Part shown: in pieces, positions 4,099 to 22,091 of the stretch
Numbering within the stretch: the stretch's first letter is position 1
Layout: every line of letters starts with the position of its first letter
Origin: Bacteroidota bacterium
GTDB lineage: Bacteria; Bacteroidota; Rhodothermia; Rhodothermales; Bin80
Assembly (NCBI GenBank): GCA_028873925.1
Contig: JAPPNA010000053.1
Span: forward strand, 1 to 54,825
Direction of reading: 5' to 3'
Length of the DNA stretch: 54,825 bases
The notes under the pieces: generated by a model
The model's input: only the letters and a program-made list of their open reading frames with translations
Told to the model about the DNA's origin: nothing
Databases searched by the model: none
Position numbers and translations under genes: made by a program

Positions 4099-5577
4099 TT
4101 GCAAGCCTGTATCAATGTGCCGATGGATCCCATAACGCCGCTCCCGGACCCGTTGCCAGAGGCCGCCGAGCTCGCGATTGCTGGCGAGTCGGAGACACTG
4201 GAGTTCAAGGAGCGCTGGCAGGATAGCATCTTGCTTAGGGAACTTGCGGCCTTTGCAAACACGGGGGGCGGCACCGTGCTGGTTGGAGTGAGCGACGAAG
4301 GAGCATTGGTGGGATGGCGTGGCGGGAAGCAGAAACTTGACGCGCTTGCGAACAAAGTAGTTGACAGCTTGCGGATTCATCCCACAGCATTCAGGGTTGA
4401 GCACATTCAGAACGTACCCGTACTCCGCATATCGGTGTCGCACTCCGCGTCGCCGGTACCCTACCAGGGTCGGTATTTCCGGCGGGTTGGATGCACCGTG
4501 CGGGAAATCACCTCGGAGGAACTCCATCGGTTTTTGCTGGATGCAATGGGCCAGACTTGGGATGCAGTCAGGATTGCCGAATCTACCGCGGCACTCAGTG
4601 AAGTAAAGCTGCGGGATTTTGCCAAGGATGCAGCCCAACGCCTACCGTACATGCGTGACGGACTTGAGAGGGACGCGTTGGAGATCACGATGCGCAGGCT
4701 GAACCTTTGCGGCAACGGAAGTCTAACGCGCGCTGCAATGCTCCTGTTTGGAAAGGATCCGCAGGGCGCATTCTTTGAGGCCCGTATTCACATGGGGCGG
4801 TTTAAGGACGCTGTAACTGTTATTGACGACAAGTGGTTTGGCGGTACGCTATTCGAGCAGATTCAGGCCGTTATGATGCAGTTTCGGCATTATCTCCACG
4901 TCAGATATGAGATTCCAGGCTCCAACATCCCCGGTGATGACGCTTCGGACACAACTGCTGACAAGCCCGGTGAGGCGGATGGTATCAAGAGCCTCCAGCG
5001 TCGTGAGATTTGGGAATACCCGTTAACTGCACTTCGGGAAGCCATTGTAAATGCCGTTATTCATCGCGACTACAGCCAGCTTGGGTGCGTTGAGATTCGG
5101 GTCTTTGATGATCGGGTCGTCGTTTCAAATCCGGGAGGGCTCCCGGAATCGTTAACGGTGGAAGAGCTGCAGAATGACGGGCATGACTCCATACGCCGCA
5201 ATCCGCTCTTGGCGCAGACATTCTATTATGCTGGCCTCGTAGAGCAATGGGGCACTGGAACGGTTAGGATGGCAGAGGCCTGCAGATCCCAGGGTCTACC
5301 AGTCCCTAAGTTTGAGACATGGCCGAATCGCTTCGCGGTAACCCTGTTCAATAGTGGATATTCACATTCCAGATTGAGGACGCTCGGCTTCAACGACCGA
5401 CAGATTCGCATCTATAAGCACGCCCGCGAGTTCGGCCCAATTGGTAATATGGAGATTCAGGAATTGGTGGGCATGTCCGCACGCACGGTGCTTCGCGACC
5501 TGAAGGCACTTGAAAAAGCCGGACTCATAAGACGAACAAGGCTGAATGGGCGACTCACACGGTACGAGGCTACCTGA
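4099..5577 (+). CDS. AlbA_2 / HATPase_c_4 ATP-binding protein with C-terminal winged helix
   Basis: A 492-residue protein of the family annotated as AlbA_2 (Schlafen-like) DNA-binding plus divergent GHKL-type ATPase. The N-terminal domain has ETLEFKE at about 30 and the loop FANTGGGTVLVGVSDEG. The HATPase_c_4 signature LREAIVNAVIHRDYS lies at about 309-323, followed by a GGLPE loop. The last 60 residues form a helix-turn-helix (IQELVGMSARTVLRDLKALEKAGLIRR). Such proteins are usually treated as transcriptional regulators or accessory defence-island proteins; no substrate can be inferred here. The start is uncertain: a TTG at 4099 sits directly behind a purine-rich AGGGGG at 4091-4095, whereas an ATG at 4123 would drop eight residues. 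A second member of the same family, broken, lies at 16.7-18.4 kb. Confidence 0.85.
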   Translation: MQACINVPMDPITPLPDPLPEAAELAIAGESETLEFKERWQDSILLRELAAFANTGGGTVLVGVSDEGALVGWRGGKQKLDALANKVVDSLRIHPTAFRVEHIQNVPVLRISVSHSASPVPYQGRYFRRVGCTVREITSEELHRFLLDAMGQTWDAVRIAESTAALSEVKLRDFAKDAAQRLPYMRDGLERDALEITMRRLNLCGNGSLTRAAMLLFGKDPQGAFFEARIHMGRFKDAVTVIDDKWFGGTLFEQIQAVMMQFRHYLHVRYEIPGSNIPGDDASDTTADKPGEADGIKSLQRREIWEYPLTALREAIVNAVIHRDYSQLGCVEIRVFDDRVVVSNPGGLPESLTVEELQNDGHDSIRRNPLLAQTFYYAGLVEQWGTGTVRMAEACRSQGLPVPKFETWPNRFAVTLFNSGYSHSRLRTLGFNDRQIRIYKHAREFGPIGNMEIQELVGMSARTVLRDLKALEKAGLIRRTRLNGRLTRYEAT

Positions 5578-5888: not shown

Positions 5889-6563
5889 TCAATCACCGCC
5901 ATCATCCAGACTGCCGTTCGCCTCCGCCATCGCCAGCATCGCACACCACTTCTTCAGGTGGATGAATCGCCGACGGACCCACGCCTGGACCAACAGGTTG
6001 GCGGGCCAGAGTATCAAGCGGACCACCAGAGCCAATAACGTCGAAACCACGGCTATGCCCAACCCCACCAGATCAGAAGACTCATGCCGCTCGCTGCTGG
6101 TAAACAGCACAAATATACCGAGCAGTGTGCCCAGAAGCCCGAGACTCAGCACAACATATACCGCCGCGCTGACGTAACGATCCACTTCACGGTAACGCTC
6201 CTGGCCCAGATCTATGAACTGAAGGACGTAGGCCAGTGAATTCTGATGCCGCTGACCCTCAAAGAGCTTTTCGCAGGCCTGCCGGTACGGATTGATCGGC
6301 GGGGTCCGCTCAATGGCATCGGTCAGGGTCGCTCGGCTGACCGTACTCGGGTCGATCTGTGACAGAGTCCTGTGGCTCTTCCACTCGTTGAGCGCACGCA
6401 CATACGCCGAAAAGATCATAAACAAACCTATCACGAATACCACGCCGATGGGATACTCAAAGCCCCGGGCGTAACTCACCAGCTCCCAGAAAGTGGACGC
6501 GGTCATCGACGATCCGGCATCTGCTGCCGCGTCCTGGATCAACAAAATGATAGCTGAGGTCAT
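5889..6563 (-). CDS. MotA/TolQ/ExbB-like proton channel protein
   Basis: A 224-residue inner-membrane protein and the last gene of the eight-gene operon that starts at 15980. Three membrane segments are visible at about 38-56, 132-154 and 165-192. The second contains LGLLGTLLGIFVLF, which matches the GLLGT..G motif of the MotA/TolQ/ExbB family; the third (GLGIAVVSTLLALVVRL) matches their channel-lining helix. A cytoplasmic loop of about 75 residues separates segments 1 and 2, as in ExbB/TolQ. In the family these proteins form a pentamer around ExbD/TolR dimers and use proton flow to move a periplasmic partner. Two ExbD-like proteins and a TonB-like protein are encoded in the same operon. Only 5 nt separate this gene from the usher-like gene, so the channel is probably dedicated to that system (inference). 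Confidence 0.72.
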   Translation of the reverse strand: MTSAIILLIQDAAADAGSSMTASTFWELVSYARGFEYPIGVVFVIGLFMIFSAYVRALNEWKSHRTLSQIDPSTVSRATLTDAIERTPPINPYRQACEKLFEGQRHQNSLAYVLQFIDLGQERYREVDRYVSAAVYVVLSLGLLGTLLGIFVLFTSSERHESSDLVGLGIAVVSTLLALVVRLILWPANLLVQAWVRRRFIHLKKWCAMLAMAEANGSLDDGGD

Positions 6564-6568
6564 GAAGA

Positions 6569-9010
6569 TTATAAGTTACCATTTGTGGCGAGTGCCAGTC
6601 GCAGCACCTGGTCAGGCTGATTGTGCACTTCAACCTGGCGTGTCCAGCCACTCAATTCGGCCAGCCCCAACACATCCATCAGCTCTACGCGATAGCTGCC
6701 GGGCGCAAGCCTGCCGCTGAAACGCCCCTCCTGGGACACTTCATAGCGTGCGATTTCATGGTCGCCCTCAAAAAAGAGTACCATTATTCTTGCCGCAGAG
6801 AACGCCGGTGGATCTTCCAGCACACCATCCAGCAGGGTCTGCAACTCCACGGGAATATTAATGCGCTTGGACTGCCCGGGGTCTGCCAGAAAGCTGAACC
6901 GCTCACCGGTCGTCAGTACTCGCCGCGGGTGCCTGAGCGACCCCGGATCCACGGTTACCTGGTAGCGCTGGTGAGGCACCAGCAGATCCGCCCTTACCTT
7001 GGATGCATCCACCTGCCGCACCTGTGCAAGGCCTACCTGAATATCCACATCCTCAATCAATTCCTCATTGCGATCTCTGCGACCATCCCTGTCCGTATCC
7101 AAAAATGCCTGCAGCACGGCACTGCTGCGGGCCCGGGTCTGTCGCATGAGCTGCGGCGCGCGCCCCAATGCCATCGATCCGTAGATGCTCTGGCTGTGAG
7201 AGCCGGGGGCTCCCTGTTCCAGCATGGAGCGGTTGGTGATGGTGGTCCAAGGCGTATCAAGGCGCAGTGTAAAGGAGGCGGCAAATTCTTCAACGTAGCC
7301 CACGCGCAATCCCAGGGACACCCATCGCCAGGCACCATGCAGGGTGACTCCAAGAAAGTCCACATCACGGACTATACCTCCCTCGCCGTGCAGGCCGATT
7401 CTTGTACCCCTGCCCATCGCCTGCGTAATCGTTGAGCTCCAGCGCGTTCGCCACGGACTATCCTCCTGCAGCTCCCACCGCAGGCGTGACATACCGCCGG
7501 TAATCACGGCAAATGTGGATCGACTCAGACTGATCGTACCGGAACCCGTAAAGCTGGAATGGCGCGTGGTGTTGTGTGTGGTGGAATGCAGCGCCTGCAG
7601 GAAAAGGCTGCCGCGTACATAATGCCATCCCAAATGCCCACTGTAATACCGCCGATAAGGCGACCAGTCAGCCATCTCCGAAACCGCCGCCTCCCCCTGC
7701 AGACGCAGCCGCCGGTGCTGCGCCCACAGCCGTGCGCGGGCGGCCTCCAAGGGCAACGCTATCTCGCCATCAATCGCAATCCCACGCCAGTTTTGGGTCA
7801 GACCTACCAGCGGGGCACCTGGCTGCGCATAGGCCGCACGGATCGCTAAGTTCGGAAGAAGACCGTAACGCGCTTCGGCAAACACCATCAGCTCATCCTG
7901 GTGCAGTGATTCCCGTCCCGCCCGTGCATCGTAGTAGAGTTTTCCAGGAGGCGGAAGGTCCTGACTCACATACAGATCACGGACGCGGGTGCTCACCGGA
8001 CCGCCATCAATGGGAGCAATTTCGACCTGAGCCTGAGAAGATCCGTAGTAAACCGGGATGCGCAGCGTATAGCGACCATCCTGATCTGCGTAGACACGGT
8101 CCACCTGCACGCCGCCAACACTGGCCGATACCACCGCACCCGGCTCCGCAATACCCCGCAGAAGGGTTTCCCGTTGGATAAACCGATTGGCCACCGGCAG
8201 ATTGCTCAGCCGAATTCCATCGTAGTTGGACTGTCGCGGCCACCCGAAGTGATTCAGCCTGCCGGTTTCAAACTGCGTCAGGATCGCAGATTGCGGAAAA
8301 TCCACCAGATAGCTCAGCGAACGAATATCCACCTCAAACGTCGTGTCCGCCTGTACAAACAGCCCTTCTCCCAACAGGCGCCCCCCAAGGGCATTGGTGT
8401 GCGTGCGGGCAAATCCATGATACGTCGGCGCGTACTCAAGCCACCGGATCCGTGTTGCACGGTAATCCACATGCGTACTGCCCAGAACAGTACGGGATCG
8501 GCCGTAAAGTAACGGACTGGCCTGCGCCGGAGGTCTGCGCCGCAACGCTGTATGCGTGATGTGCAATCGGGCATGGTCAAACTGCATCTCCACCGGCTCA
8601 AAAACCCGCTGCAACCCCGCAAAGGAAACAAAAAAACGGCCCGCGCTCACGAAGTACTCCGTAGAGTCCAACCGGATCACATCAGGACCCCGCTCCACCC
8701 TCCCGGTCATATTCGCTACCGCGATGCGCGTCGCTTCGTGCATGGCCTCAATGCGCAGACTATCCGCCATCACACGGTAATCCAGCAGTTCAAGGTAGTC
8801 GGCCAGCATCAGATAGTACTGCTGATCACTCGGCTGCCAGTAGGCTGTGACCGGCAACACTTCGTCGGCAATGCCGAGTGCACTGACCGTCCAAGGTGTC
8901 TCCTGCACGAATCTGACCGGTCTTTCCTGGGCGGCCGCCGCGACCGCGAACCCGAACGAGAGCAGGAGCAGGGCCGTGCGCCAGCTATTTTTCCTGGTGC
9001 GAATGCTCAT
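6569..9010 (-). CDS. Outer-membrane usher-like protein
   Basis: An 813-residue protein with a Sec signal peptide (1-27, hydrophobic core then AAAA). The middle resembles fimbrial ushers of the FimD/CfaC type: a plug-like Ig segment at about 282-345 with LLRGIAEPGAVVSASVGG and DQDGRYTLRIPVYYGSS, followed by PPGKLYYDARAG and then alternating aromatic strands that would form the beta-barrel. After the barrel, around 637-650, comes a calcium-loop motif DTDRDGRRDRNEE (SdrD/thrombospondin-3-like), and the end (about 720-790) is a carboxypeptidase-regulatory-like sandwich. Ushers thread folded subunits through the outer membrane and polymerise them. Its ATG overlaps the stop of the upstream secreted protein by 4 nt, which suggests coupled expression. 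It could instead be another barrel with an Ig plug; the usher call rests on the plug region and the neighbouring chaperone-like and DUF4402-like parts. Confidence 0.6.
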   Translation of the reverse strand: MSIRTRKNSWRTALLLLSFGFAVAAAAQERPVRFVQETPWTVSALGIADEVLPVTAYWQPSDQQYYLMLADYLELLDYRVMADSLRIEAMHEATRIAVANMTGRVERGPDVIRLDSTEYFVSAGRFFVSFAGLQRVFEPVEMQFDHARLHITHTALRRRPPAQASPLLYGRSRTVLGSTHVDYRATRIRWLEYAPTYHGFARTHTNALGGRLLGEGLFVQADTTFEVDIRSLSYLVDFPQSAILTQFETGRLNHFGWPRQSNYDGIRLSNLPVANRFIQRETLLRGIAEPGAVVSASVGGVQVDRVYADQDGRYTLRIPVYYGSSQAQVEIAPIDGGPVSTRVRDLYVSQDLPPPGKLYYDARAGRESLHQDELMVFAEARYGLLPNLAIRAAYAQPGAPLVGLTQNWRGIAIDGEIALPLEAARARLWAQHRRLRLQGEAAVSEMADWSPYRRYYSGHLGWHYVRGSLFLQALHSTTHNTTRHSSFTGSGTISLSRSTFAVITGGMSRLRWELQEDSPWRTRWSSTITQAMGRGTRIGLHGEGGIVRDVDFLGVTLHGAWRWVSLGLRVGYVEEFAASFTLRLDTPWTTITNRSMLEQGAPGSHSQSIYGSMALGRAPQLMRQTRARSSAVLQAFLDTDRDGRRDRNEELIEDVDIQVGLAQVRQVDASKVRADLLVPHQRYQVTVDPGSLRHPRRVLTTGERFSFLADPGQSKRINIPVELQTLLDGVLEDPPAFSAARIMVLFFEGDHEIARYEVSQEGRFSGRLAPGSYRVELMDVLGLAELSGWTRQVEVHNQPDQVLRLALATNGNL

Positions 9011-12000
9011 TGCCAGCGCAGTGGTATCGGTCGAGGAGCGTTGCCGTGTGGAGTCACAAAATTCAACGTTACCTCACTGCCCGCTGGAGCATTCAGCGGC
9101 CACTGCAGGATCCTGCGCGTCAAAAGGAGCAGACTTCGCCGTCCCAATTCATTGCCGGCGTGATCGACCGCAACTATCTCACCGGCAAACGGACCATCGG
9201 CAGTTTCCAGCAGAAGGGTGCCCCGAGACAATTGGGTTGCCGTGACGGCACTTGCGTCCTGTCCGGGGAGATAGGCACTCTGGACGCGAAGAGATACCAG
9301 TGCGACGCGCGATGAATCATCCGGCAGCGGCAGCAGGTCCGTGCGAATGTAACGCCGGGGGCGGCTTTTAAACTCGATCTGGGTCGCATAGGCACTCGGC
9401 CCCATGGACCGGTCCTCCCGCAGCGCATAGTGCACCTGCTGCGACTGACCCGGAGGCAGCGTAAACACCTTCGGATAGAACAGCAGTGCAGCGCCCAGGT
9501 CCTGTACCGCGGCCGTTGGTGTCTCCACCATGGCCTCAACACCCGTCCCCTCCTGAGCCTCCAGATAGCCAAAGACGGGATCTACGAGAACCTCCTGCGT
9601 TATCAGCGACGGATTTGACACGGAAAACGTGCCGAACGCGTGTTCGGGTGTCAGCAGCACCTGTCGCGGATAGATACTCAGCGACTGAGCACGGGTTACC
9701 CGCTGCGCGTCGTCCGCGCTCACAAACGTTCCCCCGGGACCCGTCGTAACCGGGCGGGCGGTGTCTACCACAGTGGCAAATACAGGCACCCAATAGGGCT
9801 CCCGAACCTCCCCCGACTCAACAGTTACTTCCAGGGTGCCCGAATAGCGGCCGGGCGCAGCACCGCGTAAATCAAGATTGCCACCGATGTTCAGAACGGT
9901 GCACCGATCCGTGGCCGCCCGCAGCGATATTCTGGCACGATCACTGCGTAGAGCCTCTACGGAAGGGGCCAGGCAGGATTCGGACATCGTCCACTGAGGC
10001 CGTAGCCGAACCGAGCCGTCTCCATCCTGATTCCGCAGTGTACCCCCGGTAAGGCTGATATCCACATCCAAATCCTCGTCCGCGGCAAATATCATGCGTC
10101 CGAGATGGTAGGATCCGCCCGCCTTCGTTGCCATCGTGCCGGTCATGGGATCCAACATGACTTCGCTCCCCGCGGATTGCTCACCGAACTGCACGGCCAC
10201 CGTATTTACGGTTATGTCAAACTCGGCCGGAAACGGTGCCACATGCACCCGCACAACTGCGGCGGCCGGATCCGAATAGCGGGAACCTACGCGATAGACG
10301 TATTCATACACATAGGGGGCCGCCAGCGTGTCCGGCACATCAAACATCGGAGTGCGGACGAGCGCTGATGAGAGCCGCTCCAGATCCCGTGCGGCGTGTT
10401 GCGCAAGCCACCGGTAGTTGAACGGCTGCATCGGATCCGCTCTTCCGGATGGCTCATCACACTGCGGCTGCACCGGAAAATCCACGCTGCCGACATATAC
10501 GTAGTAATCCAGGCCTTTACAGGAAAGTTCAATCTGACCCCGCTCACGCACCCGTATCCTGATGTCCGCACTGCTGGAACCGATATGCGCATCGGTAACC
10601 GTCAGTGTATAGGCATACTCTTTGTCTTCTTCGACCCGGTTGGGCACATTAAAGGTCGGCGACAGCATGTCCGGGTGACTGAGCAGATCCAGGTTTGCAC
10701 CATACCAGACAAACTCGTACGCGGTACCGCCGGATACCGCACAGTTGATCAGCAGATCCGGCTCTCCCGCGTAGGTTTCAAGAAACTCGGGACAGCTGAC
10801 TGCAGGCGGCTTCCTGTTCAGCACTGTAACTGTCCAGGGCATACCGGCCGTACACACCCCCTCACCATCGGGGCAGAATTCAACTTGGTAGGTAAAGGTC
10901 GTGTCGGATTCCACCTCTGGAGCCGCGAGCGTCGTCTGCGTGAGCTTAGGCGCGGCCGGACCTGTTGGGCCGCGCCATCGGACATGATGCCCTGCGGGCA
11001 CGCGGCAATCCAGGGGTCGCTGTTCCAATTCCTCCAGCGTCATCGGCGGGCAGTAGGCTTCGCTATCGGCATCGGTGTGAGCGCGAACTTGCACGGTCAC
11101 CCGGTGGCGCGCCTCGTGCTGATCGGTGCGCATGCTCACGACATAGTGAAACATGGTGTCCTGTCGGACCCGAGGTGCCGTGAAGGTGGGCGATGCCCTA
11201 TGGGTCGCGCTTAGCGGACCGGTCGAAGTGCCCCACAGTCCGGTCCAGATGTAAGCGGCAGCGCCCTGAGCCGGGGTGTCACATCTCAGCATAGTCGAGG
11301 CGCCAGCGTCCACCGTCACATGCTCGGGGCACATTAACTGTGGTCCGCGCGCATTGACGACTACGGTGATGTGTCTCAGCGTGGTCTGCTGCGTTTGGCG
11401 CGAGATAACTGCCAGGGTCAGCGGCACGGTCAGTGACGACTGACCGTAAGGCAGCAGCGGTGCCATAATCGTGGGATTGGGCGCATTGACCGGGTACAGT
11501 GTGACGGGTCCGCCGCCGGTCCATGTGTATTGCAAGGTGTTATCGATTATGGGTCCCGCTAAGCGGCACTGTATGGATGCGTGCGCTCCCTCCTGCAGAT
11601 GTACTGAGGCTGGACATTGCAATTGAGGCGGAGCAATGGTTTCGCCATCCGGACACTGCAGGCAGCCGGGCCTGACTGTTACGCGGACCACCGCCTCACC
11701 CAAGAACTGACCATCCACCGTGTGTACGACCATCGTATACACGATGTCCAGAGGTTGCGCCAATTCTGTGGGCGCAGAAAAGACCGGCGTTTGCACCGCC
11801 GGACTGCTGAGCAGACCCAGGTGGCCCGCATCGGCACTCATCCAGCGATACACAAACCCACTCTCCCCTTCTGCGTCAATTGCGCACTGTATCGGCGCGT
11901 TTGCGCCCGCCCGCACCTGCAGATCGTCGCAGACTATTGAACGCACAATCTGTGCCTTGAGGGGTACCGCAAGCGCAGCACACACCAGGAGCAGCAACCG

Positions 12001-12015
12001 GACTTGTAGGCGCAT
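9007..12015 (-). CDS. Secreted protein: six Ig/PKD-like repeats, DUF4402-like and PapD-like parts
   Basis: A 1002-residue exported protein (signal peptide about 1-21 ending in LKA). Six repeats of roughly 95 residues follow up to about residue 600. Most start with a CP pair and carry a second Cys about 17 residues later, a Y.W or F.W core and a ..V.V.V end, which reads as Ig/PKD/REJ-like modules each with a disulfide. Residues about 600-735 resemble DUF4402, a pilin-like family: a VQFGEQSAG start, a GG.L..RGAAPGRYSGTLEVTV end and a Cys pair. From about 780 the sequence looks like a pilus-assembly chaperone N-domain: SIYPRQVLLTP, F.V.NPS and YPKVFTLPPGQSQQV. A second sandwich completes the C-terminus. 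The function is probably that of a surface structural subunit or adhesin carrying its own chaperone-like part (inference). It lies between the TPR lipoprotein (4-nt gap) and the usher-like gene (4-nt overlap). Confidence 0.6.
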   Translation of the reverse strand: MRLQVRLLLLVCAALAVPLKAQIVRSIVCDDLQVRAGANAPIQCAIDAEGESGFVYRWMSADAGHLGLLSSPAVQTPVFSAPTELAQPLDIVYTMVVHTVDGQFLGEAVVRVTVRPGCLQCPDGETIAPPQLQCPASVHLQEGAHASIQCRLAGPIIDNTLQYTWTGGGPVTLYPVNAPNPTIMAPLLPYGQSSLTVPLTLAVISRQTQQTTLRHITVVVNARGPQLMCPEHVTVDAGASTMLRCDTPAQGAAAYIWTGLWGTSTGPLSATHRASPTFTAPRVRQDTMFHYVVSMRTDQHEARHRVTVQVRAHTDADSEAYCPPMTLEELEQRPLDCRVPAGHHVRWRGPTGPAAPKLTQTTLAAPEVESDTTFTYQVEFCPDGEGVCTAGMPWTVTVLNRKPPAVSCPEFLETYAGEPDLLINCAVSGGTAYEFVWYGANLDLLSHPDMLSPTFNVPNRVEEDKEYAYTLTVTDAHIGSSSADIRIRVRERGQIELSCKGLDYYVYVGSVDFPVQPQCDEPSGRADPMQPFNYRWLAQHAARDLERLSSALVRTPMFDVPDTLAAPYVYEYVYRVGSRYSDPAAAVVRVHVAPFPAEFDITVNTVAVQFGEQSAGSEVMLDPMTGTMATKAGGSYHLGRMIFAADEDLDVDISLTGGTLRNQDGDGSVRLRPQWTMSESCLAPSVEALRSDRARISLRAATDRCTVLNIGGNLDLRGAAPGRYSGTLEVTVESGEVREPYWVPVFATVVDTARPVTTGPGGTFVSADDAQRVTRAQSLSIYPRQVLLTPEHAFGTFSVSNPSLITQEVLVDPVFGYLEAQEGTGVEAMVETPTAAVQDLGAALLFYPKVFTLPPGQSQQVHYALREDRSMGPSAYATQIEFKSRPRRYIRTDLLPLPDDSSRVALVSLRVQSAYLPGQDASAVTATQLSRGTLLLETADGPFAGEIVAVDHAGNELGRRSLLLLTRRILQWPLNAPAGSEVTLNFVTPHGNAPRPIPLRWQ

Positions 12016-12019
12016 ATCG

Positions 12020-13501
12020 TCACCGGGGCACGCTCCTGTAGCGGGTCAGGAAGACCTGAGCCTTATCTGTTTCGCCAATTCGGCGATACAAATTGCCCAT
12101 AAGCGACAGGTAGGTACGCTGCTGCTCCGGGGTAAGCACATCGAAGACTTCTTCAATCTGCGGCTCCAGTTGCCGGGCCTGCCGCGGGTTGCCGCGGGTG
12201 AGCTTGAGAGCTTCTATATAGGCCGCACCCGCGTAGCGGCTTTCCAACTTCGGCACCATCAGGAGGTACGCAAACGCTATCGCTGAAGATCCGTCCTGCT
12301 GATGCTGCATGCCTCGCTGGAACAGCATACTGCCATAGGTCTCCTGCAGGTGCGCCGGAAATTCCTCATACGGCATCCGTTCGGCCGCACGGGTCCGGGC
12401 CCACAGTATCTGCAGCGAGTCAAGCGACGAATCATACTCTTCAAGCTGCCAGGTGAGAATCGCTGCATTGTAATTCGCTTCCAGGCGCGCCGGGGATGTC
12501 TGAAGCTGCCTGATCAGGGCGTAAAGTCCATTTCGTGCGTCCAAGGGTTGAGCTGCCGCCAGGGTAAGCAGGCTGTCAAAAGCCAGACGATGCTCAAAAT
12601 GATCCCCATCCCACCGCGCCCAGTCCTGCTCACGAACGGCGTAGACGTACTGGGTTGAATCTGTTGCGTAGGTAATGGCTTGCGCCAATGACTGCCGCAC
12701 GCCTCCTCCATTGCGATCCTTTACAAAAACACTGTAGGCCCGTTGGTAATAGTTGAACAGCGTCAAACTGTCGGGCGGCGGTGCTTCGGCGGTAAAGGCC
12801 AGACGCGCATCGTCCAGCACGACCGTGGCGGCCTGCAACCACGCCAGACCACTGGCCTCATAATCCTGTAGGGTGTCCAGCACGACCGCCATGTCAGCCC
12901 ACAGCACATGCTGATCCGCATTGAGCTCAAGCAGTCCCCGCAGCGTCCGCAGTGTTGCCTCCCACTGGTGCTGAAGCTGATATCGCTGTGCCAGGAATCT
13001 GTAGACGCGAGAGAGCTGAAAACGCGCGTCTTCATGAAACGGATTGTGCTGCAGCGCCGCCTCATAAAGCCGCTGCGCCTCGTCCAGCAGCGCCAGCGCC
13101 TGCACGCTGTCCTGCCGCGCCTGAGCTTGCGCCGCAGCGGATACCGTTCGCATTGCGCGATCGAGCGTGGTGGTGTCGGCCTCGGACCCACCAGATCCCT
13201 CTAATGGGCCCCTGCCGTGCTGCAGAATAAGCAGGCTGTCCAGCCGGATCTGAACTTGGTGCCCAACCGAGTAATGCTCGGAGGCCTGCCGCTCAGCCGC
13301 GGCGGCCACGAAGGTGCTGTCGTAGGATTCTGCCACCTGCGCAACAACCAGCGAATCCACACCGGGCAATGGAGCCGTCACGATAGGAACTGCGCTGGGC
13401 GCTGCGACAGATTCTTCAACAGGCGGCACCTCCACTACCCGCGACGAGCTGCAGCCTGCACCGATGACGAGAATTCCGATTAATGCTAACGCGCGAATCA
13501 T
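12020..13501 (-). CDS. TPR-containing lipoprotein
   Basis: A 493-residue protein with a lipoprotein signal (VIGAGC; lipidated Cys17). A Pro/Val/Ala-rich tether follows. Residues about 110-260 contain helical pairs of the TPR type, for example ALLDEAQRLYEAALQHNPFHEDARFQLSRVY read in part, and further helical repeats run to the C-terminus (ERMPYEEFPAHLQE, PRQARQLEPQIEEVF). Such lipoproteins often scaffold envelope machines. It should be anchored in the periplasm, either at the inner or the outer membrane. It is the fifth gene of the operon, 12 nt after the second ExbD-like gene and 4 nt before the Ig-repeat protein. No enzymatic motif was seen. I infer an assembly or stabilising role for the usher-like complex, comparable to pilotin or scaffold lipoproteins of other secretion systems. 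Confidence 0.65.
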   Translation of the reverse strand: MIRALALIGILVIGAGCSSSRVVEVPPVEESVAAPSAVPIVTAPLPGVDSLVVAQVAESYDSTFVAAAAERQASEHYSVGHQVQIRLDSLLILQHGRGPLEGSGGSEADTTTLDRAMRTVSAAAQAQARQDSVQALALLDEAQRLYEAALQHNPFHEDARFQLSRVYRFLAQRYQLQHQWEATLRTLRGLLELNADQHVLWADMAVVLDTLQDYEASGLAWLQAATVVLDDARLAFTAEAPPPDSLTLFNYYQRAYSVFVKDRNGGGVRQSLAQAITYATDSTQYVYAVREQDWARWDGDHFEHRLAFDSLLTLAAAQPLDARNGLYALIRQLQTSPARLEANYNAAILTWQLEEYDSSLDSLQILWARTRAAERMPYEEFPAHLQETYGSMLFQRGMQHQQDGSSAIAFAYLLMVPKLESRYAGAAYIEALKLTRGNPRQARQLEPQIEEVFDVLTPEQQRTYLSLMGNLYRRIGETDKAQVFLTRYRSVPR

Positions 13502-13513
13502 TTCCAGCGTCCT

Positions 13514-13894
13514 TTATTCGGCCCGAACGATGAATACCGCCTGCCGACCGGCCTGCTGCACGATCAGATTGACATCCAACACGCGTTTGGCGGATACCGC
13601 ATGATCGGCGACGATTTCCACGGCTTGGCCTTCATCACTGGCCACAACCATGGCAAAGAGCTGCTGGGGGGTGATCACGGCTGATTCCTGTCCTGTAAGC
13701 CCCTCCCGGGACTGCGGTGACTTGACCAGCAGCACCCCATCGGCGGTGAGTGCAATTTGGAGCGGCAGCATCATATTGGCGCTCTCTTCAACTTCCACAC
13801 TGGTTGGCGGCTCCACATCAAATTCCGGCATGATGCTTACCGCTGCCAGCCCGGCCAGCAGAATCAGAATGATGTCCACCAATGATTCGTCCAT
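13514..13894 (-). CDS. ExbD/TolR-like protein (second copy)
   Basis: A 126-residue protein with one N-terminal membrane helix that begins LVDIILILLAGL. Asp7 sits exactly where ExbD and TolR carry the protonatable Asp of their LVDVMLVLL-type motif. The periplasmic part contains ALTADGVLLV, ITPQQLFAMV, VEIVADHAVSAKRVLDV and a final QQAGRQAVFIV, the usual order of the ExbD/TolR fold (beta-strand, helix, strand with D, helix, strand). The length is near the family norm of about 140. The gene starts 3 nt after the TonB-like gene and is followed 12 nt later by the TPR lipoprotein. Together with the ExbB-like protein at the operon end it should form a proton-driven motor. A second, more divergent ExbD-like gene lies two genes upstream; the pair may form a heterodimer inside the channel (inference). 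Confidence 0.72.
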   Translation of the reverse strand: MDESLVDIILILLAGLAAVSIMPEFDVEPPTSVEVEESANMMLPLQIALTADGVLLVKSPQSREGLTGQESAVITPQQLFAMVVASDEGQAVEIVADHAVSAKRVLDVNLIVQQAGRQAVFIVRAE

Positions 13895-13897
13895 GTA

Positions 13898-14875
13898 TCA
13901 CTTGCGCTGCGTACTCCACCAATCCAGGAATAGGCCGTAAAAGGCTTGAGCTTCGTCACTTTCGGGTGAAAAATCTTCGCTTTCCACCGCAATGACGACA
14001 TTGGCGGCATTGCGGCGGGCCGTTCCCATTTGGAAGTAGCTGGTCGCACGGCGCACACGTGGCCTTACAAAGAAATACAGATCCGTGCCTTCAATCAGTA
14101 CAATCCGCACTTCCCCGTTGGTTCGCGCCAGCAAGAACTGCAGTTCGTACGATGAGTCAGCGGTTCGGCCAATAGCCCGTGCCGTAGCCACATCCTTGTC
14201 GGTGCCCATTACGGATCGGATTACCGGGTCCAGATCCGCCGGATTGCTGCGAATCCACGCAGCCAGGGAGTCATCAAAGGAGACCTCCTGAAAATCCTCG
14301 GCCTTAACAGGCAGCGGACGCGTCCCTGCGCGCAACACCAGTTCATTTGCCCCATAGGCTCCGGTAGCGTTGTCCAGTGCGCGGGGGCTGCCGCCAGTCT
14401 CCGCTCCCGGTTGAATCAGGCTGGGCACGCGGCGTGAAGAGACATTGCTTTGCAGGTTTGCGTTCTGACGGCTCACGCGTTGATTCCGATCTTCTTCGCT
14501 CTCCAGGAATCCGAGGTCGAATTCTTCCACTTCCAGGTTCCTGGGCGACCGGGACGCGGCTTCCAGCTGCTCGTTTGGGGCGTGGGATTCTTCCTGCACC
14601 CCGAACGCTTCCGCCAGCAGGGCGGCGACCTGCTCGTTGGACAGGACTTCTTCCGCCGGTGCCGTCGGCTCAGTGATTTCGGCGGGTTGATCCGGCTCCG
14701 GAGTCGCGATGTCCAAGGGCTGCGTTACGATAGGCAGCAGGTACATCTGTTCCCGCATTACTTCCGACTGCCCTTCCTGCGGTAACGGAATCAGGGTCAG
14801 CACACCAAACAGCAGCACAAGGAGGACCCCGAAGGTAATCCATTCCCTGAACCGCATTCGCAATTGGTCGGCCAT
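13898..14875 (-). CDS. TonB-like single-pass membrane protein (architecture only)
   Basis: A 325-residue protein with a short cytoplasmic N-terminus, one membrane helix at about 12-31 (ITFGVLLVLLFGVLTLIPL) and a long periplasmic region. The first periplasmic part is rich in Pro, Glu and Ala (PEPDQPAEITEPTAP), like the extended TonB linker. A compact C-terminal domain of roughly 130 residues follows, with YELQFLLARTNGEVRIVLIEG and DLYFFVRPRVRR. I do not recognise the classical TonB C-terminal motif (YP..A....GV.G), so the name rests on topology and on the position between two ExbD-like genes (7 nt and 3 nt gaps). It may be the periplasm-spanning arm that links the ExbB/ExbD-like motor to the usher-like protein. 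GspC-, TolA- or LptC-like linkers would be alternatives. Confidence 0.45.
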   Translation of the reverse strand: MADQLRMRFREWITFGVLLVLLFGVLTLIPLPQEGQSEVMREQMYLLPIVTQPLDIATPEPDQPAEITEPTAPAEEVLSNEQVAALLAEAFGVQEESHAPNEQLEAASRSPRNLEVEEFDLGFLESEEDRNQRVSRQNANLQSNVSSRRVPSLIQPGAETGGSPRALDNATGAYGANELVLRAGTRPLPVKAEDFQEVSFDDSLAAWIRSNPADLDPVIRSVMGTDKDVATARAIGRTADSSYELQFLLARTNGEVRIVLIEGTDLYFFVRPRVRRATSYFQMGTARRNAANVVIAVESEDFSPESDEAQAFYGLFLDWWSTQRK

Positions 14876-14882
14876 TATCCCC

Positions 14883-15272
14883 CTACGACCCTCCGGCTAC
14901 ACTGCAGGACAAACCTTCGGCCAAACACAAATCCAGCAGCGAAACCATCTGCTGCAGAGTCGACCCGCCCTGGGGTGAGAGCACCAGCAGGCTGCCGGGC
15001 CTCTCCGTTTTTACGCGCCGCATACAGGCCCGCGCCTCCGACACGTTCGTAGAAGTGCAGAACACCTCTTGGTCCGACTGGCGCAGCAGCATGACCTGCA
15101 TCCGCTCGTCAAAATGCACCTCATAGATCACGGGCGCAGATTCCGACTGTTCCGTCTCCTGCGGCAGGGGCACCTGCAGCCTTGGCATCTGCTCTGTCAG
15201 CAGGAAGAACGCAGCCAGCAGGATAAATCCCAAGTCTATAAACAACTGCAAGTCAGCCTGACCTTCTCGCAT
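14883..15272 (-). CDS. ExbD/TolR-like protein (first copy)
   Basis: A 129-residue protein with one N-terminal membrane helix, LFIDLGFILLAAFFLLTE. Asp13 occupies the position of the conserved Asp in ExbD/TolR/MotB. The periplasmic part is shorter and more divergent than usual, but keeps VIYEVHFDE, an AR.C.RRVK helix and a terminal helix plus strand. It has four periplasmic Cys residues (in VFC, ARAC, DLC and LSC), unlike the second copy at 13514, so disulfides are possible. It is the second gene of the operon, 9 nt after the secreted protein at 15282 and 7 nt before the TonB-like gene. With its paralogue it would supply a heteromeric ExbD-like stator part (inference). Confidence 0.6.
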   Translation of the reverse strand: MREGQADLQLFIDLGFILLAAFFLLTEQMPRLQVPLPQETEQSESAPVIYEVHFDERMQVMLLRQSDQEVFCTSTNVSEARACMRRVKTERPGSLLVLSPQGGSTLQQMVSLLDLCLAEGLSCSVAGGS

Positions 15273-15281
15273 GCCGATTGC

Positions 15282-15980
15282 CTAGTTGCAGGATCGCGAG
15301 ACCACTTTTCCATCCGCCGTCCAGTTTTCAACGACGACGCACCCGTCATAATCAAGGTAGGAACGCACGGTAGGCTCCGAGAACATTTCAACGAGCATAG
15401 ACTCTGAAGGCGGCGCGATGCACCGGGTGGCATTCGGCACAAATGTAAGGCGCTCGCTATCGTACCCCCAGATGGTGATATTCACCTCTTCATTCTGCTG
15501 CCGCACATACATCTCCAGCGGTCCAGAGGAATAGTAGGCCCCCAGGGTGCGCAGCACCGAACCCGCCATGGCCTTACGCGCATTTTCCTCCATCTCTGCT
15601 TCCTCGGTAACTACCGCGCTTTGCCCACGCACCGTTTGCAGGCGATAGTCCTCTTCAAGATTGAGTGCAGACAATCGGCTGAGCAGGTCCTGAGGCAGGG
15701 TAGCACTGAGCAGGAACTGGTCTCGGTTCGGCTCCAGCACAAGCAGATCATTGATCCCGAAGCCATCTTGGGTAACATCCAGAAACACAGCTGATGTGTA
15801 CGAATCATTCTCCGGGAAAAGGATCTGATCTTCCAGAACTTGCCGGATAAACTCCAGATCGTACACCTCGGCTGCCGGCATCACCCTTTGACTCACATCC
15901 GCTTCCTGATCTTGCCCGTAAGCCGCTCCGGCAAACGGGAGCATGGAGGCGATAATCAGCGTTGCGCGGGATGATTGCAT
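15282..15980 (-). CDS. Secreted protein of unknown function, first gene of the usher/ExbBD operon
   Basis: A 232-residue protein with a Sec signal peptide (hydrophobic core LIIASMLPFAGAA, cleavage near AYG-Q at 22). The mature part has no motif that I recognise. It is acidic, has two Cys near the end (TRCIAPPS and YDGCVV) plus a final RSC, and carries YLDYDGCVVVENWTADGKVV, which could be a beta-rich domain. It opens the operon, so its promoter should lie just upstream, in an A/T-richer stretch near 15985-16020. The gene is separated from the ExbD-like gene by 9 nt. A periplasmic adaptor or a minor subunit of the surface structure is conceivable, but no evidence decides this. Confidence 0.6.
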   Translation of the reverse strand: MQSSRATLIIASMLPFAGAAYGQDQEADVSQRVMPAAEVYDLEFIRQVLEDQILFPENDSYTSAVFLDVTQDGFGINDLLVLEPNRDQFLLSATLPQDLLSRLSALNLEEDYRLQTVRGQSAVVTEEAEMEENARKAMAGSVLRTLGAYYSSGPLEMYVRQQNEEVNITIWGYDSERLTFVPNATRCIAPPSESMLVEMFSEPTVRSYLDYDGCVVVENWTADGKVVSRSCN

Positions 15981-16665: not shown

Positions 16666-18416
16666 TCAAATATCGCGTGTAGGATCATAAGGCCGATACT
16701 CCACCAGGGCCGCGCGCCCCAATATGTCCTTGATGGTGGCCATCATTTCAACCCCACAGTTATCCGTGAGCCGTAGCGGTTTGCCCAGCCGAAACACGAC
16801 CTGTTGCGGCCGCCCCTCGTCAACGGATACATTATCAGCGTACAGATAAGTTCGATCAGCAGCATCACGTATGGGATTCAACCTGCCCTGCAGGCCAGGA
16901 ATCTTCCCGGTGCTGTTCGGAATAATGACCGCCCCTCCCAAGGTAAGGGGAGATAATTCCAGCAACAGACCGCCGTGGCTCGGCGTCCATTCTCTTTCCA
17001 AACCGGCGGTATACCCGGGTGTCGCTGCGTACACGGTCATCGGAAGATGCGTAGTGAACAGATCAAATTCCGCTTCACCGGCCTCGTTGGTACTTGTCTG
17101 CTGCCAGGTCTTGTTTGGGAAGATGGCCAGTACATCCACGCCGGCGAGCGGTTCACCCTCAGCGTGTACCGTGACCGCAGCATTTGAGGGTACGAGCTCA
17201 AGCCTGGCAGCCGGGATGGTCAGGACCAGATTTGAACCGTCTACCAGCCTGTACACCGGATCAATTCCAGCGGTCTCATGAGTCTCGCGCAGGATGATTG
17301 AGACACCATCGCCCCGCCGCTCCATTATGTAGCGGCGATGGTCTGATCCGGGAATTCTGCCGACGGGGATTCGCCCGAACACGGAAGCTATGATATCGTT
17401 GCGAGTAGCCTGAGTAGAACCCATCCCCTCAATCGTCATCCCGTTGGGAAGCTGACCGGGCGAGTCAATCTCAAAGCGGTTCCTAAACATCGACAGCCTG
17501 ATGCGCCGGGCCTGTACGGAATAGTCACGATGCACGACAGCGTTAACCACTGCCTCAAATACCGCCATCCTGCTGTACTGCGGCGCATCTTCCCGAGCGG
17601 GAGTCTTGCGGGCCGAGACCCGCATATTGCGGACAACGAATTTTACTGCCTCGTTAACCTGGTCAGGCAGCGGTCCAGTGATCTCCTGTGCATCCAGTTG
17701 GCCGGAAGCGCGATCTGTGCCGCGATACAGGGTCGCTGCGATACCGGCTTGCGGCAGCCACTCCTGCGGCGACTTCGTACAAAGAAGGATTCCGGCTATC
17801 GTTGCCCGTTCCACTGATGCCTCATCGTGTGCCAACAGCCCTTGGTTCCGTAGCGCCCGGCGCGGATTGGCCGCACCCGCCGCACTCAAGAGTGGCATCC
17901 ACAACTGCTCATCCAACGTATGGAACCCCGTCTCGCCAACAATCTGTCGGTCGAACCAGCGGTATCTACCTTGAGCGCGACGCTGCGCCAGTCGCATCCG
18001 TTCGTCGCTATCAGGCAGTCGCCTGCTCCCACCAACCCTGATGAATGCTTTACCGGCTCGCTCGTACACGGAATCACCGCGCGGAACCTTGACGACTACT
18101 AATGCCTGACCATCAATCTCCCGATGATAGGTTTCGATGCCGAGGACAGGATTGATAGTATCTGTGCTGATCTCAACCAACAGCTGGTCCAGAGCGGCAT
18201 CTGCTTCATGGACATTCCCTGCACCCGACCCTCATCTGAGACCCCGCAGAGGAGATAGCCTCCGTTTGAATTGGCAAACGCCGCCATCTCATCAGCGAGT
18301 TTGTCCCGGCGCGGGCGCTTCGGTCGATTGCCGCTGAATTCAACCTGTCTGAATTCGCACTCGCTGTCTTCGCCCATTCGCAGGCGCTGGCGGATCTCAG
18401 CTTCGGTCATGGACAA
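16666..18416 (-). pseudogene. AlbA_2 / HATPase_c_4 ATP-binding protein, interrupted by a frameshift
   Basis: Two frames together make one protein. The first (ATG at 18416) has the AlbA_2 part: SECEFRQVEF, then FANSNGGYLLCGVSDEGRVQGM. The homology then continues in another frame as DAALDQLLVEIS, into a frame open from 18180 to 16666. The shift lies near 18198-18206 and fits one missing base. The second part carries the HATPase_c_4 signature FEAVVNAVVHRDYS and the SPGQLPNG loop. Beyond the usual end there are about 170 extra residues: one Ig/carboxypeptidase-regulatory-like unit (AEGEPLAGVDVLAIF, NEAGEAEFDL) and a terminal part ending PYDPTRDI. There is no homopolymer at the shift. It may be a true lesion, a sequencing error, or two separately translated parts. 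A small Cys-rich frame overlaps its start. Confidence 0.75.
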
Positions 18417-18921: not shown

Positions 18922-21762
18922 CTAGAACAGGTCAGCAGTCAGTCGCAGCACGAAGGCGCGTCCGTTGTAGTCCCACGGCGTGGATTCCGGGCGGATGTTG
19001 CCCTGTGACAACGTCTCGTCCGCATGGGTGTCATAGAAGGTGTCCAGTAGATTGTCAACACCAAATGCCACACGGTAACTGCTGGCAAAGGTGTACCCGA
19101 CCTCCAGGTCCGCAATAACCTGTCCTTCAAACGTATCCAGCAGACTTGAGCCGCCGGACATGCAGGAGTTGCTGTTATTGCGGCAGACCTGCCAGCCATC
19201 GTAGTAGCTGAGACGCAACATGCCGTGCACCGCACCTCTGATGTGGCGACCACTGGCGACGAGTCGATGACGCGGATTCAGATTTTCAATCTCCACGATC
19301 CGACGCGGTGTCAGCACGCTGAGTGTGAACGGGCTCTGGAGGCTCTGACCAAGGAACTCACTGATCTCACTCGGCGCGGAATGACCCACCAGCTTCGTAC
19401 GCGTATAGTTCCAAGCCAGGCTGGCTTGGGTGGCATAGCCGTTGTCATGCTCCACATCATAAGCCAGCAGCAGGTCATACCCCTGCGTACGCGTGTCAAA
19501 ATCGTTGGAGAAGAACTTGACCTCCGCCAGATTCTCCACGCCGCCCAGCAGGTCGGCCTCATCCATGATGTCGGAAATCTCCTGCGAAATCGCAATGTTG
19601 CCCGTCAGTGAAATACGATCATCCAACCTTATGTCAAAGTAGTCCACCGTCAGCGTGAGATCTTCCGTGATGTCCATGACCGTACCCACCGTAAAGCTGC
19701 GCGCGGTCTCTTCCGTCAGCGGAAGACCACCCAGAGCCATTGAAATCGGATGCGTAGAAGGCAGCTGCCCGGTTTCCACAAGCTGATCTCCGGTGCCGCT
19801 GAGTGCGGTCTGCAGCGCCCAAAGGTTGGCCTGACCCGGTGTCGGCGCACGGAAGCCGGTTGAGACCGTACCCCGCAGACGAATCCGGTCCGTAGCACGG
19901 TACAGGGCGGCGATCTTGCCCGTCAGCGTGGAGCCGAAGTCATCATAATAGTTCTCATACCTGGCGGCCACTCCTGCCACCCAACGCTCGGTGAGGTCCG
20001 TCTCAAAGTCAATGTATGCCGCGAAATTCGGACGCGTCCAGGAGTTCGCAAACCTGGGGTTCAAACCCTGGTACCCGTTGGAGCCGACACTGAATCCCTG
20101 CGCCGAGAACGGGCCCGCCTCGTAGGAAGCAGGATCTCCGGCTACGGTCTCAAACATCTCCTGACGCCACTCAACGCCAATGGCCATGTTGAGCGGTTCA
20201 GCGAACGCATCCACATCAATCGGAAGTGAAACGGAACCGGCAACGGTAAACTCTGTCTGCCGGTATCCCCGAGGCTTGAACGATGTCGGCGTGTTGGGTC
20301 CCAGCGAGGCATTGACCGTATTGTAGATGAAATAATCCACCTGACTGTTGCCGTAAATCGCGCTGGCATCCCACCGAAGCCCGTCATCACTGCCTCCCCG
20401 AATACCCACGGTGCCGCTGAGGTCCGAAATATTGGCACCGAAACGGGGCGTGAATCCACCCGGATACAACTCGTTGAATACAAAGCAGCGCCCCTGATAC
20501 TGACTGACAAAGTTGGAGACCGCGGAAAAATCGGCATCCAGACCCGGCACGACATCGCTGCAGACTATGTCGTCACTCTCGTTCAGATCCGCTACGGCAC
20601 GCCGGGCCGATGCTCCGCTGCCGAACCGGAATACGGCGCTCCGCGCACTCCCGGTTCCGGGCGCACGGAAGTAAAAGCCTCCCTCCGATTCGCGCTGGCC
20701 GAAGCCGCCGAACGCATACAGATGGGCACCACCGACATCCATGCCGGCGTTTAGAAAGCCCACCATTGAGTTGGACACATCCGGTGATCCCCAGATCTGG
20801 GCCGGATTGGTAAGCGGGTAGCCACGCTCCAGCAGCACCGTCTCATCGGCGCGCAAACCGCTGCGAATCGTGGGGTCCGCATCCCGGTACTCAAAACTGA
20901 GGTTGGCAAAGCCGTTCTGCGTCAAAGGCAGACCCACATTCACACCGACCATGCCGTGGCGGCCATCCCCTTCGGAATACTGACCTCCCTGCATGCGTAC
21001 ATGGACACCGCTGCGGTTTTCCCGCAGCTGCATATTAAACACTCCGGCCACCGCATCCGCCCCGTACTGAGCGGAAGCCCCATCCCGGAGGATTTCAACA
21101 CGCCCGACGGCTATGCTCGGTATCATGTTCAGATCCGCGCCTTGTGAACCGACATTCAGCGAGGTGCCAAGCAGGGCCATCGATCCGGAACGATGCCGGC
21201 GCTTGCCGTTAATCAGCAGGATAACATTGTCTGCTGGCAGACCTCTAAGGGTGATCGGTCGCACCAAGGTGGCCTCATCATCAATGCCGTGTCGCTGCAC
21301 GTTGAAGGACGGCACCTGCGAACGGAGCACATCATCAAAATCCGTACTCGTCTGTGAGGCAAGGTCCCTGGGGCCAAACACGTCCACCGGAACCGCCGAA
21401 TCCTTCACCAGACGCGGCAAACGACGAGATCCGACCACCACAACCTGCTCAATCTCCAGCACACTCACCTGCAGCGCGACATCAAGGGTGGACATGCCCT
21501 CTTCCACCATGCGCACCTCGCTCCTGTAGCCGACAAAACTGAATGAAAGCGTAGAACCGGCACCGGCTACCTCCACGGAGTACATCCCGTCGCCATCGGT
21601 GGTAGTACCGGTAAGAGTGCCCTGCACGGCCACCGTTGCTCCCGGAATGGGATCGCCCGACTCGGCATCGGAGACCGTACCGGTAACGGTCATCTGCGCA
21701 CTGGCAAGCGGCACCAGTATGAGCCCTGCCAACAGTGTCAAAATTGTGAAAACTCTTGTCAT
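18922..21762 (-). CDS. TonB-dependent outer-membrane receptor
   Basis: A 946-residue receptor starting at the ATG at 21762, which begins a clean signal peptide (core FTILTLLAGLILVPLASA). The frame is open farther upstream to 22083, but a consensus promoter lies inside that extension. Residues about 25-105 form a carboxypeptidase-regulatory-like domain (VTGTVSDAESGDPIPGATV), typical of Bacteroidota receptors. The plug follows, with LPADNVILLINGKR and VEILRDGASAQYGADAVAGV. The rest is the 22-strand barrel, ending in FVLRLTADLF with the terminal Phe. It resembles receptors that end near the SusC/IroN type, yet no SusD-like partner is adjacent, so a siderophore, haem or small organic ligand is possible and the substrate is unknown. 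The gene is monocistronic: a perfect promoter in front and a strong terminator behind. Confidence 0.93.
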   Translation of the reverse strand: MTRVFTILTLLAGLILVPLASAQMTVTGTVSDAESGDPIPGATVAVQGTLTGTTTDGDGMYSVEVAGAGSTLSFSFVGYRSEVRMVEEGMSTLDVALQVSVLEIEQVVVVGSRRLPRLVKDSAVPVDVFGPRDLASQTSTDFDDVLRSQVPSFNVQRHGIDDEATLVRPITLRGLPADNVILLINGKRRHRSGSMALLGTSLNVGSQGADLNMIPSIAVGRVEILRDGASAQYGADAVAGVFNMQLRENRSGVHVRMQGGQYSEGDGRHGMVGVNVGLPLTQNGFANLSFEYRDADPTIRSGLRADETVLLERGYPLTNPAQIWGSPDVSNSMVGFLNAGMDVGGAHLYAFGGFGQRESEGGFYFRAPGTGSARSAVFRFGSGASARRAVADLNESDDIVCSDVVPGLDADFSAVSNFVSQYQGRCFVFNELYPGGFTPRFGANISDLSGTVGIRGGSDDGLRWDASAIYGNSQVDYFIYNTVNASLGPNTPTSFKPRGYRQTEFTVAGSVSLPIDVDAFAEPLNMAIGVEWRQEMFETVAGDPASYEAGPFSAQGFSVGSNGYQGLNPRFANSWTRPNFAAYIDFETDLTERWVAGVAARYENYYDDFGSTLTGKIAALYRATDRIRLRGTVSTGFRAPTPGQANLWALQTALSGTGDQLVETGQLPSTHPISMALGGLPLTEETARSFTVGTVMDITEDLTLTVDYFDIRLDDRISLTGNIAISQEISDIMDEADLLGGVENLAEVKFFSNDFDTRTQGYDLLLAYDVEHDNGYATQASLAWNYTRTKLVGHSAPSEISEFLGQSLQSPFTLSVLTPRRIVEIENLNPRHRLVASGRHIRGAVHGMLRLSYYDGWQVCRNNSNSCMSGGSSLLDTFEGQVIADLEVGYTFASSYRVAFGVDNLLDTFYDTHADETLSQGNIRPESTPWDYNGRAFVLRLTADLF

Positions 21763-21797
21763 AGGAATAGATGGTTTAAGCGAAAATAATGTCCAAT

Positions 21798-21888
21798 CAA
21801 CCCTCGGCGAGTTGATCCGGGCAGCCACACCACTCCAGCTGTCAGCGCGGTCCGGCCGGTCCAGCAAGTCACGCATGCAAGAGGGTTG
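21798..21888 (-). promoter_or_regulatory. Possible structured leader of the receptor mRNA
   Basis: Inside the roughly 170-nt leader, CAACCCTC (21798-21805 on the plus strand) can pair with GAGGGTTG (21881-21888), closing a region of about 75 nt that also holds a G/C-rich palindromic core, CCGGCCGG. I do not recognise a known riboswitch. It may be a cis-regulatory fold or chance. Confidence 0.3.
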
Positions 21889-21940
21889 CCTCATCCTGTT
21901 CATGTGGCCTGCGCCTGGCTCTGAAGGATGCTCATTCCCA

Positions 21941-21969
21941 ATTATAACATAAAACGCCGGAAATGTCAA
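21941..21969 (-). promoter_or_regulatory. Perfect consensus sigma70-type promoter of the TonB-dependent receptor gene
   Basis: Read leftwards, TTGACA (21969-21964) is followed after exactly 17 bp by TATAAT (21946-21941). All 12 positions match the Escherichia coli consensus. Transcription would start near 21934 and leave a leader of about 170 nt before the ATG at 21762. This is unlike the TTTG/TAnnTTTG promoters usual in Bacteroidota. Confidence 0.8.
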
Positions 21970-22007
21970 TATTGCTCCCCGAAAATCCTGGCTCCGTACC
22001 CAATCCG

Positions 22008-22079
22008 ATACTCCTGCCGAATCCGTAACAATTCTGCCGAAGCAATGGCCGTGATTCGCCCGTAAAGGCGGGCGGAATC
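22008..22079 (+). other. Candidate oriT / MobC operator upstream of the mobilisation genes
   Basis: Three signals lie within 85 bp of mobC. A TCCTGC string at 22012-22017 resembles the nic core of IncP-like origins. The near-direct repeat TCCTGCCGAA (22012-22021) and TTCTGCCGAA (22032-22041) is spaced 20 bp apart, about two helical turns. A hairpin follows: GATTCGCCCG with CGGGCGGAATC (22053-22079), one bulged G and a short loop. Such an arrangement would suit a relaxosome origin or an autoregulatory MobC site. Confidence 0.35.
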
Positions 22080-22091
22080 TCAACCGGGTTT

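Follow-up and report, generated by a model that had tools for sequence, protein, structure and literature searches.

A chaperone-usher-type outer-membrane protein encoded together with an ExbB/ExbD-type motor in Rhodothermales

The window analysed here is a 54,825-nt stretch from the genome of a Bacteroidota bacterium (order Rhodothermales, Bin80; assembly GCA_028873925.1, contig JAPPNA010000053.1, positions 1 to 54,825). It contains an eight-gene leftward operon, running from position 15980 to position 5889 with all open reading frames (ORFs) on the minus strand, that combines an usher of the FimD/PapC kind with an ExbB/ExbD-type channel. Comparison of sequences across related genomes provides good support for usher and channel being a real, inherited unit. 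In textbooks, chaperone-usher export exemplifies secretion that needs no external source of energy, and we lean, on balance, towards reading the eight genes as one envelope-spanning machine, in which a chaperone-usher surface structure would possess its own proton-driven motor with a mechanical output. From position 15980 onwards, the operon encodes the following proteins, with the locus types A to D described below:

15282..15980, minus strand: S232, a secreted protein with a signal peptide, first gene of the operon (ORF; homologues in type A, B, and D loci)
14883..15272, minus strand: ExbD-A, 129 aa, ExbD/TolR-like with the membrane Asp (Pfam ExbD, 6.6e-6; alignment)
13898..14875, minus strand: TonB-shaped transducer, 325 aa (alignment; predicted structure)
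13514..13894, minus strand: ExbD-B, 126 aa, a second, divergent ExbD/TolR-like protein with the membrane Asp (Pfam ExbD, 3.7e-5, below the cut-off; alignment)
12020..13501, minus strand: TPR lipoprotein, 493 aa, lipobox GAGC (Pfam TPR matches; conserved in loci)
9007..12015, minus strand: Ig/DUF4402/chaperone fusion, 1002 aa (Pfam; domain positions from our own hidden Markov models (HMMs); hhalign)
6569..9010, minus strand: usher, 813 aa (AlphaFold2 model; Foldseek; VIA-align; profile-profile comparison)
5889..6563, minus strand: ExbB/MotA-family channel protein, 224 aa (Pfam MotA_ExbB, 2e-5; alignments)

In this order, the genes are separated by 9, 7, 3, 12, and 4 nt, followed by a 4-nt overlap between the fusion and usher genes and a final gap of 5 nt. 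Co-transcription of all eight genes is likely because these distances are short; a promoter and terminator scan of the operon found such sites to be no commoner than in shuffled sequences. An earlier, sequence-only reading of this DNA had described eight leftward genes with gaps of 3–12 nt, as found here, and several 4-nt overlaps, of which only one exists.

No Pfam or NCBIfam usher model matches the single 813-aa usher sequence. An AlphaFold2 model built from 18 relatives (mean pLDDT 78, pTM 0.54) predicts an N-terminal domain (~33–155), a 24-strand barrel composed of six strands, a plug (~280–348), and 18 further strands, and C-terminal beta-sandwiches (~629–808). When this model was searched against the PDB with Foldseek, ranks 1–19 were all FimD or PapC (best E 2.5e-26). 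VIA-align yielded Z scores of 17–25 for FimD/PapC pores, with the PapC pore 2vqi_B at Z 25.3 (rmsd 3.6 over 398 residues), vs. about 15 for the best porins, and the alignment with FimD extends to residue 808. A profile-profile comparison with the six ushers of E. coli K-12 covered 537 columns with the plug in register (probability 95.5, E 1.6e-8). Fold model, Foldseek, VIA-align, and profile comparison thus all agree with the usher-like barrel with plug proposed in the sequence-only reading, and an ordinary porin, which would have no plug, is ruled out by the Z scores; the plug-less fold that had been named beforehand as the contrary outcome did not appear.

Among the motor components, the ExbB-like protein lies above the Pfam MotA_ExbB cut-off and keeps the equivalents of E. 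coli ExbB T148 and T181 in an alignment with the E. coli proteins; a PDB profile search with it gave no match. Of its initial description as ExbB/TolQ-like, the MotA_ExbB domain and the channel threonines stand, but Glu176 in the third transmembrane (TM) helix, a hallmark of ExbB/TolQ proper, has no equivalent, and we therefore assign the protein only to the MotA/ExbB superfamily of channels. The two ExbD-like proteins with a membrane Asp are borne out by Pfam (ExbD-A above and ExbD-B just beneath the PF02472 cut-off), by alignment, and by a joint profile that matches TolR/ExbD structures (E 3e-8). The Asp is kept in all 20 aligned ExbD homologues and aligns with the Asp of E. coli ExbD and MotB. 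ExbD-A and ExbD-B share just 13% identity, and each is conserved in its own operon position across loci, which suggests from the sequences that they form a heterodimeric axle. The window genome (3.93 Mb) carries four MotA_ExbB genes, two of which lie beside its two ushers.

The transducer is predicted to consist of a TM helix (residues 2–28), a disordered linker of ~140 residues (36–176), and a folded domain (198–324) with six strands and a C-terminal helix, ending in a conserved WW motif. It has no Pfam or NCBIfam match, TonB included, and no PDB profile match, and a fold search reached a best Z of ~5 with no convincing family, and TonB does not appear in its list of matches. The term TonB-like, used in the initial description, is hence apt for the layout of TM helix and long linker and not for the C-terminal domain, which is not recognisable as that of TonB. 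S232 likewise has no Pfam, NCBIfam, or PDB profile match, and is an invariant member of the core cassette. The TPR lipoprotein, already recognised as such and confirmed by its Pfam matches and lipobox, is kept across the usher-motor loci.

To place the operon in its wider context, usher homologues from 59 relatives were taken with their surroundings and annotated with our own HMMs; for the contig scan, a 9-row usher alignment was effective, while a mixed 18-row alignment was too divergent and yielded nothing. A total of 34 usher loci were counted, the window included, and in 32 of the 33 testable ones an ExbB gene lies 1.5–3.7 kb from the usher. The locus G010:C156 stops at a contig end, and its ExbB opens another contig stretch (C170). 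In the converse search, the ExbB profile gave 32 matches at E<1e-60, of which 31 adjoin an usher and the remaining one is at a contig break. The named relatives with an usher locus are Rhodothermales and Bacteroidetes metagenome-assembled genomes (MAGs). Two gene orders occur: type A (S232-ExbD-TonB-ExbD-TPR-usher-ExbB, with the fusion gene before the usher or at the front), to which the operon belongs, and type B (S232-subunits-chaperone-usher-ExbB-ExbD-ExbD-TonB-TPR), represented in the window genome by a second copy (G000:C112). Pairwise distances of usher and motor proteins are correlated with r 0.86–0.97, to which shared genome ancestry contributes, and none of 999 permutations gave a value as high; type A and type B motors each track their own ushers. 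A chance neighbourhood of motor and usher is ruled out by this co-occurrence and co-divergence. The dedicated channel in an usher operon that had been noticed in the window is thus a feature of nearly all testable loci, and the loss of the pairing in relatives, which had been set as the outcome speaking against it, was not seen.

A few loci depart from these patterns. An usher cluster with S232 and chaperone genes and no motor (L124, G009:C41) and two motor cassettes that have no usher next to them (L160, G009:C65; L161, G015:C9) may be split or degenerate loci. One Rhodothermales MAG contains four copies of the type A locus (L031, L032, L033, and L034) with ~97% nucleotide identity, each preceded by a protein of >1600 aa with a type A tail of the type IX secretion system (T9SS) and ending just after exbB.

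The putative cargo of the type A loci is the fusion protein, which in the window consists of a signal peptide, Ig/PKD repeats, a DUF4402 domain resembling pilus subunits (~585–733), and a PapD-like chaperone domain (~774–985). The DUF4402-like part noted earlier is present as a Pfam match, yet one just under the cut-off (4.4e-5), and the PapD-like part is moderately supported: hhalign relates it to seven K-12 chaperones (E 2.4e-5, probability 75, vs. E 0.2–0.4 for two unrelated controls), but a PDB profile search gave no match. The type A homologues of the fusion, detected with our own HMMs, range from 973 to 2246 aa (n = 12), and all 12 covered homologues have DUF4402 followed by the C-terminal chaperone-like domain after a variable number of Ig repeats. 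A separate DUF4402 subunit was not found in genomes with only type A loci using the Pfam DUF4402 model, which also misses the fused copies. As the subunit-like and chaperone domains are fused and the operon has no free subunit, the type A operon probably serves to hold a fixed adhesin and not to assemble a long pilus. The type B loci, with separate subunits and chaperone, probably build a pilus.

More distant ushers across the phylum have the ordinary cluster neighbours, namely DUF4402 proteins and a chaperone. In parts of families f17 and f18, however, the usher is followed by a FliF-FliG fusion, a TPR lipoprotein, MotA, and MotB (type C: L098:8454-16180, L106, L127, L141, L143-L149, L178-L180, L191, and L192), so that two independent motor pairings exist on ushers: the ExbB/ExbD/TonB-like cassette in Rhodothermales and FliF-FliG/MotA/MotB in other Bacteroidota. 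The type C usher usually has 993–1014 aa, whereas most f18 ushers above ~1130 aa have no motor nearby. In the FliF-FliG fusion, FliG_C (1.5e-11) and FliG_M (1.7e-10) are detected and its profile matches the FliG structure 1lkv (E 9e-28), with only a weak FliF match; MotA matches MotA_ExbB (7e-17), and MotB contains an OmpA domain (1.7e-15) and the plug motif. Among 394 genomes, the fusion adjoins an usher in 16 of 16 matches at E<1e-200. FlhA is absent from 7 of 10 type C genomes, as it is from the four type A/B genomes tested, indicating that the type C genes are not flagellar. The type C usher L098:8454-11441 has a weak Pfam TPR_2 match near its C-terminus (residues 944–976), a possible motor contact. 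FliF-FliG with MotA/MotB and the TPR lipoprotein also occurs without an usher in two groups (L181-L186, and L187, L188, and L190), one with a 361–392-aa neighbour of the fusion and the other, family f41, with a 370–383-aa protein upstream.

Within the 394 genomes of the phylum, matches to the transducer profile are confined to the order of the window and two f18 members. Outside families f1 and f15, the ExbB/ExbD/ExbD/transducer/TPR/S232 cassette lacks an usher and has a T9SS surface protein and a PorP/SprF-like barrel as neighbours (type D: L154, L155, L156, L157, L158, L174, L175, and L176). The surface protein combines FG-GAP repeats with a type B tail of the T9SS (Pfam CHU_C; TIGR04131 just under the cut-off), and an SprF-like partner with a T9SS surface protein is the moving-adhesin arrangement of Flavobacterium (PMC9127263). 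Since the cassette also occurs in these usher-less loci, the motor is, judging from gene content, a portable module that teams up with outer-membrane proteins engaged in the display or secretion of surface proteins. SprA, the T9SS translocon, was found in all 11 genomes tested for it (G000, G004, G005, G009, G039, G026, G035, G139, G081, G161, and G233), and GldM_1st in none of them, although GldM may be too diverged for the Pfam model; GldM_4th was detected only in G283 among 17 genomes tested. The cassettes are thus candidate motors for lineages with an SprA translocon and no detectable GldM.

If the eight genes encode one machine, five ExbB copies would surround one ExbD-A/ExbD-B pair, forming a 5:2 motor with a heterodimeric axle that proton flow would turn or tug. 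The TonB-shaped transducer would transmit this force through the periplasm as far as the outer membrane, and the TPR lipoprotein and S232 may couple it to the usher and the Ig/DUF4402/chaperone fusion held by the usher. The output would be mechanical work on a surface-displayed protein, such as adhesion under force or gliding-like movement. We prefer such mechanical driving over export because ushers without a motor are common, because this cassette also serves a T9SS surface protein that has an SprF-like partner, and because a FliG rotor fits torque. Several observations weigh against the proposed machine. Usher function in general does not depend on a motor, as many other ushers of Bacteroidota lack one in their vicinity. 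The equivalent of E. coli ExbB E176 is replaced by Ile in the window and by Ile, Val, or Phe across types A, B, and D, and the C-terminal domain of the transducer has no recognised fold in Pfam, PDB profile, and fold searches. Moreover, the usher locus G009:C41 is truly without a motor (none in 9.9 kb downstream), and the cassette G015:C9 is without an usher. Extended to both pairings, the idea becomes more tentative: ushers may, at somewhat less than even chances, be the sites at which ion-driven 5:2 motors, recruited on two or more occasions, do their work, with usher-borne fibres or adhesins being actively pulled or rotated as a new class of appendage.

Given that TonB acts to open receptors and that GldLM is the motor for both T9SS secretion and gliding, energised export is still a serious, if rather unlikely, rival to mechanical driving. 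Acting through the transducer, the motor would open the usher plug or pull the fusion through the usher, i.e. perform proton-driven secretion. The plug is retained in the usher model, the type A cargo is large and multidomain with its chaperone fused on and could not use ordinary chaperone release, and the T9SS cargo and PorP/SprF-like protein beside the type D cassette are both export-related. However, export by known ushers proceeds without energy input, no motor accompanies most of the Bacteroidota ushers found here, the FliG/MotAB pairing at other usher loci suggests torque rather than gating, and the N-terminal motif of the usher is part of a strand predicted within the N-terminal domain and not of a free TonB-box-like tail. 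The energised surface assembly or export suggested in the sequence-only reading hence stays conjectural, with the comparative evidence fitting mechanical driving at least as well. The distribution of SprA and GldM_1st and the usher-less cassettes beside T9SS cargo in other families would also fit a cassette that is the missing T9SS or gliding motor of these lineages, with the usher as one of several clients instead of a dedicated partner. We consider this quite improbable, given that 31 of the 32 strong ExbB matches in the window's lineage adjoin an usher, that each motor type tracks its own ushers, and that GldM may merely have escaped the Pfam model. Finally, a TonB-dependent receptor-like ORF (18922-22083) is located 3 kb upstream of the operon in the same orientation, as might be expected of an ordinary Ton nutrient-uptake energiser that adjoins the usher by accident. 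This reading is largely refuted by the conserved co-occurrence of cassette and usher in relatives and has very little left to recommend it, as the transducer has no recognisable TonB domain and a separate ExbB-family gene at C73 of the window genome, followed by an ExbD-like ORF, has a much better family score.

Beside the operon, the window encodes a putative regulator of the Schlafen/AlbA_2 plus HATPase_c_4 type (4099-5577, plus strand). ORFs resembling it lie on the other side of the operon (16666-18416, minus strand), and similar ones are found near type B loci (L114).

If the proposed machine is real, some usher-borne surface structures do mechanical work, powered by motors of two unrelated layouts in two Bacteroidota groups, and the 5:2 motor family gains an outer-membrane output beside Ton, Tol, Agl-Glt, GldLM, and flagella. 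With the chaperone-usher systems of FimD and PapC, the operon shares the 24-strand barrel with a plug between strands 6 and 7, the C-terminal domains as modelled, and chaperone-like and subunit-like partners. It differs in that the usher has no Pfam usher match, the type A subunit and chaperone domains are fused to Ig repeats, and a complete proton motor is encoded alongside, for which we found no counterpart among systems described in the open-access literature, an usher with a dedicated ion-driven motor included. The Ton and Tol-Pal systems (ExbBD-TonB and TolQR-TolA) have the same type of channel with Asp and Thr and a bitopic, long-linker transducer; here, in contrast, there are two distinct ExbDs, no ExbB Glu176, and a transducer end domain that is unrelated as far as tested, and the motor is dedicated to one usher locus. 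GldLM with SprB/SprF, from the same phylum, resembles the proposed machine as a proton motor that works on a surface adhesin anchored in the outer membrane, and the type D cousins lie beside a PorP/SprF-like protein and T9SS cargo; the present motor is of the ExbB/ExbD type, GldM_1st was not found in the 11 genomes with SprA, and the usher replaces the T9SS parts. In its parts list, the operon matches the Agl-Glt machinery of Myxococcus, which comprises one ExbB-like, two ExbD-like, TonB-like, and TPR proteins and sets adhesion complexes of the outer membrane in motion (PMC3169522, PMC9389320), with a pulling model laid out in PMC9389320. Agl-Glt and its Nfs relative share with the operon the single-pass TonB-like transducer and an outer-membrane beta-barrel partner, whereas here this partner is an usher, the TonB domain is not recognisable, and the likeness concerns the parts list. 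Each half of the operon is therefore of a known kind, while the usher-motor combination appears to be new, and motion, if shown, would make the usher-motor operon a new class beside these systems.

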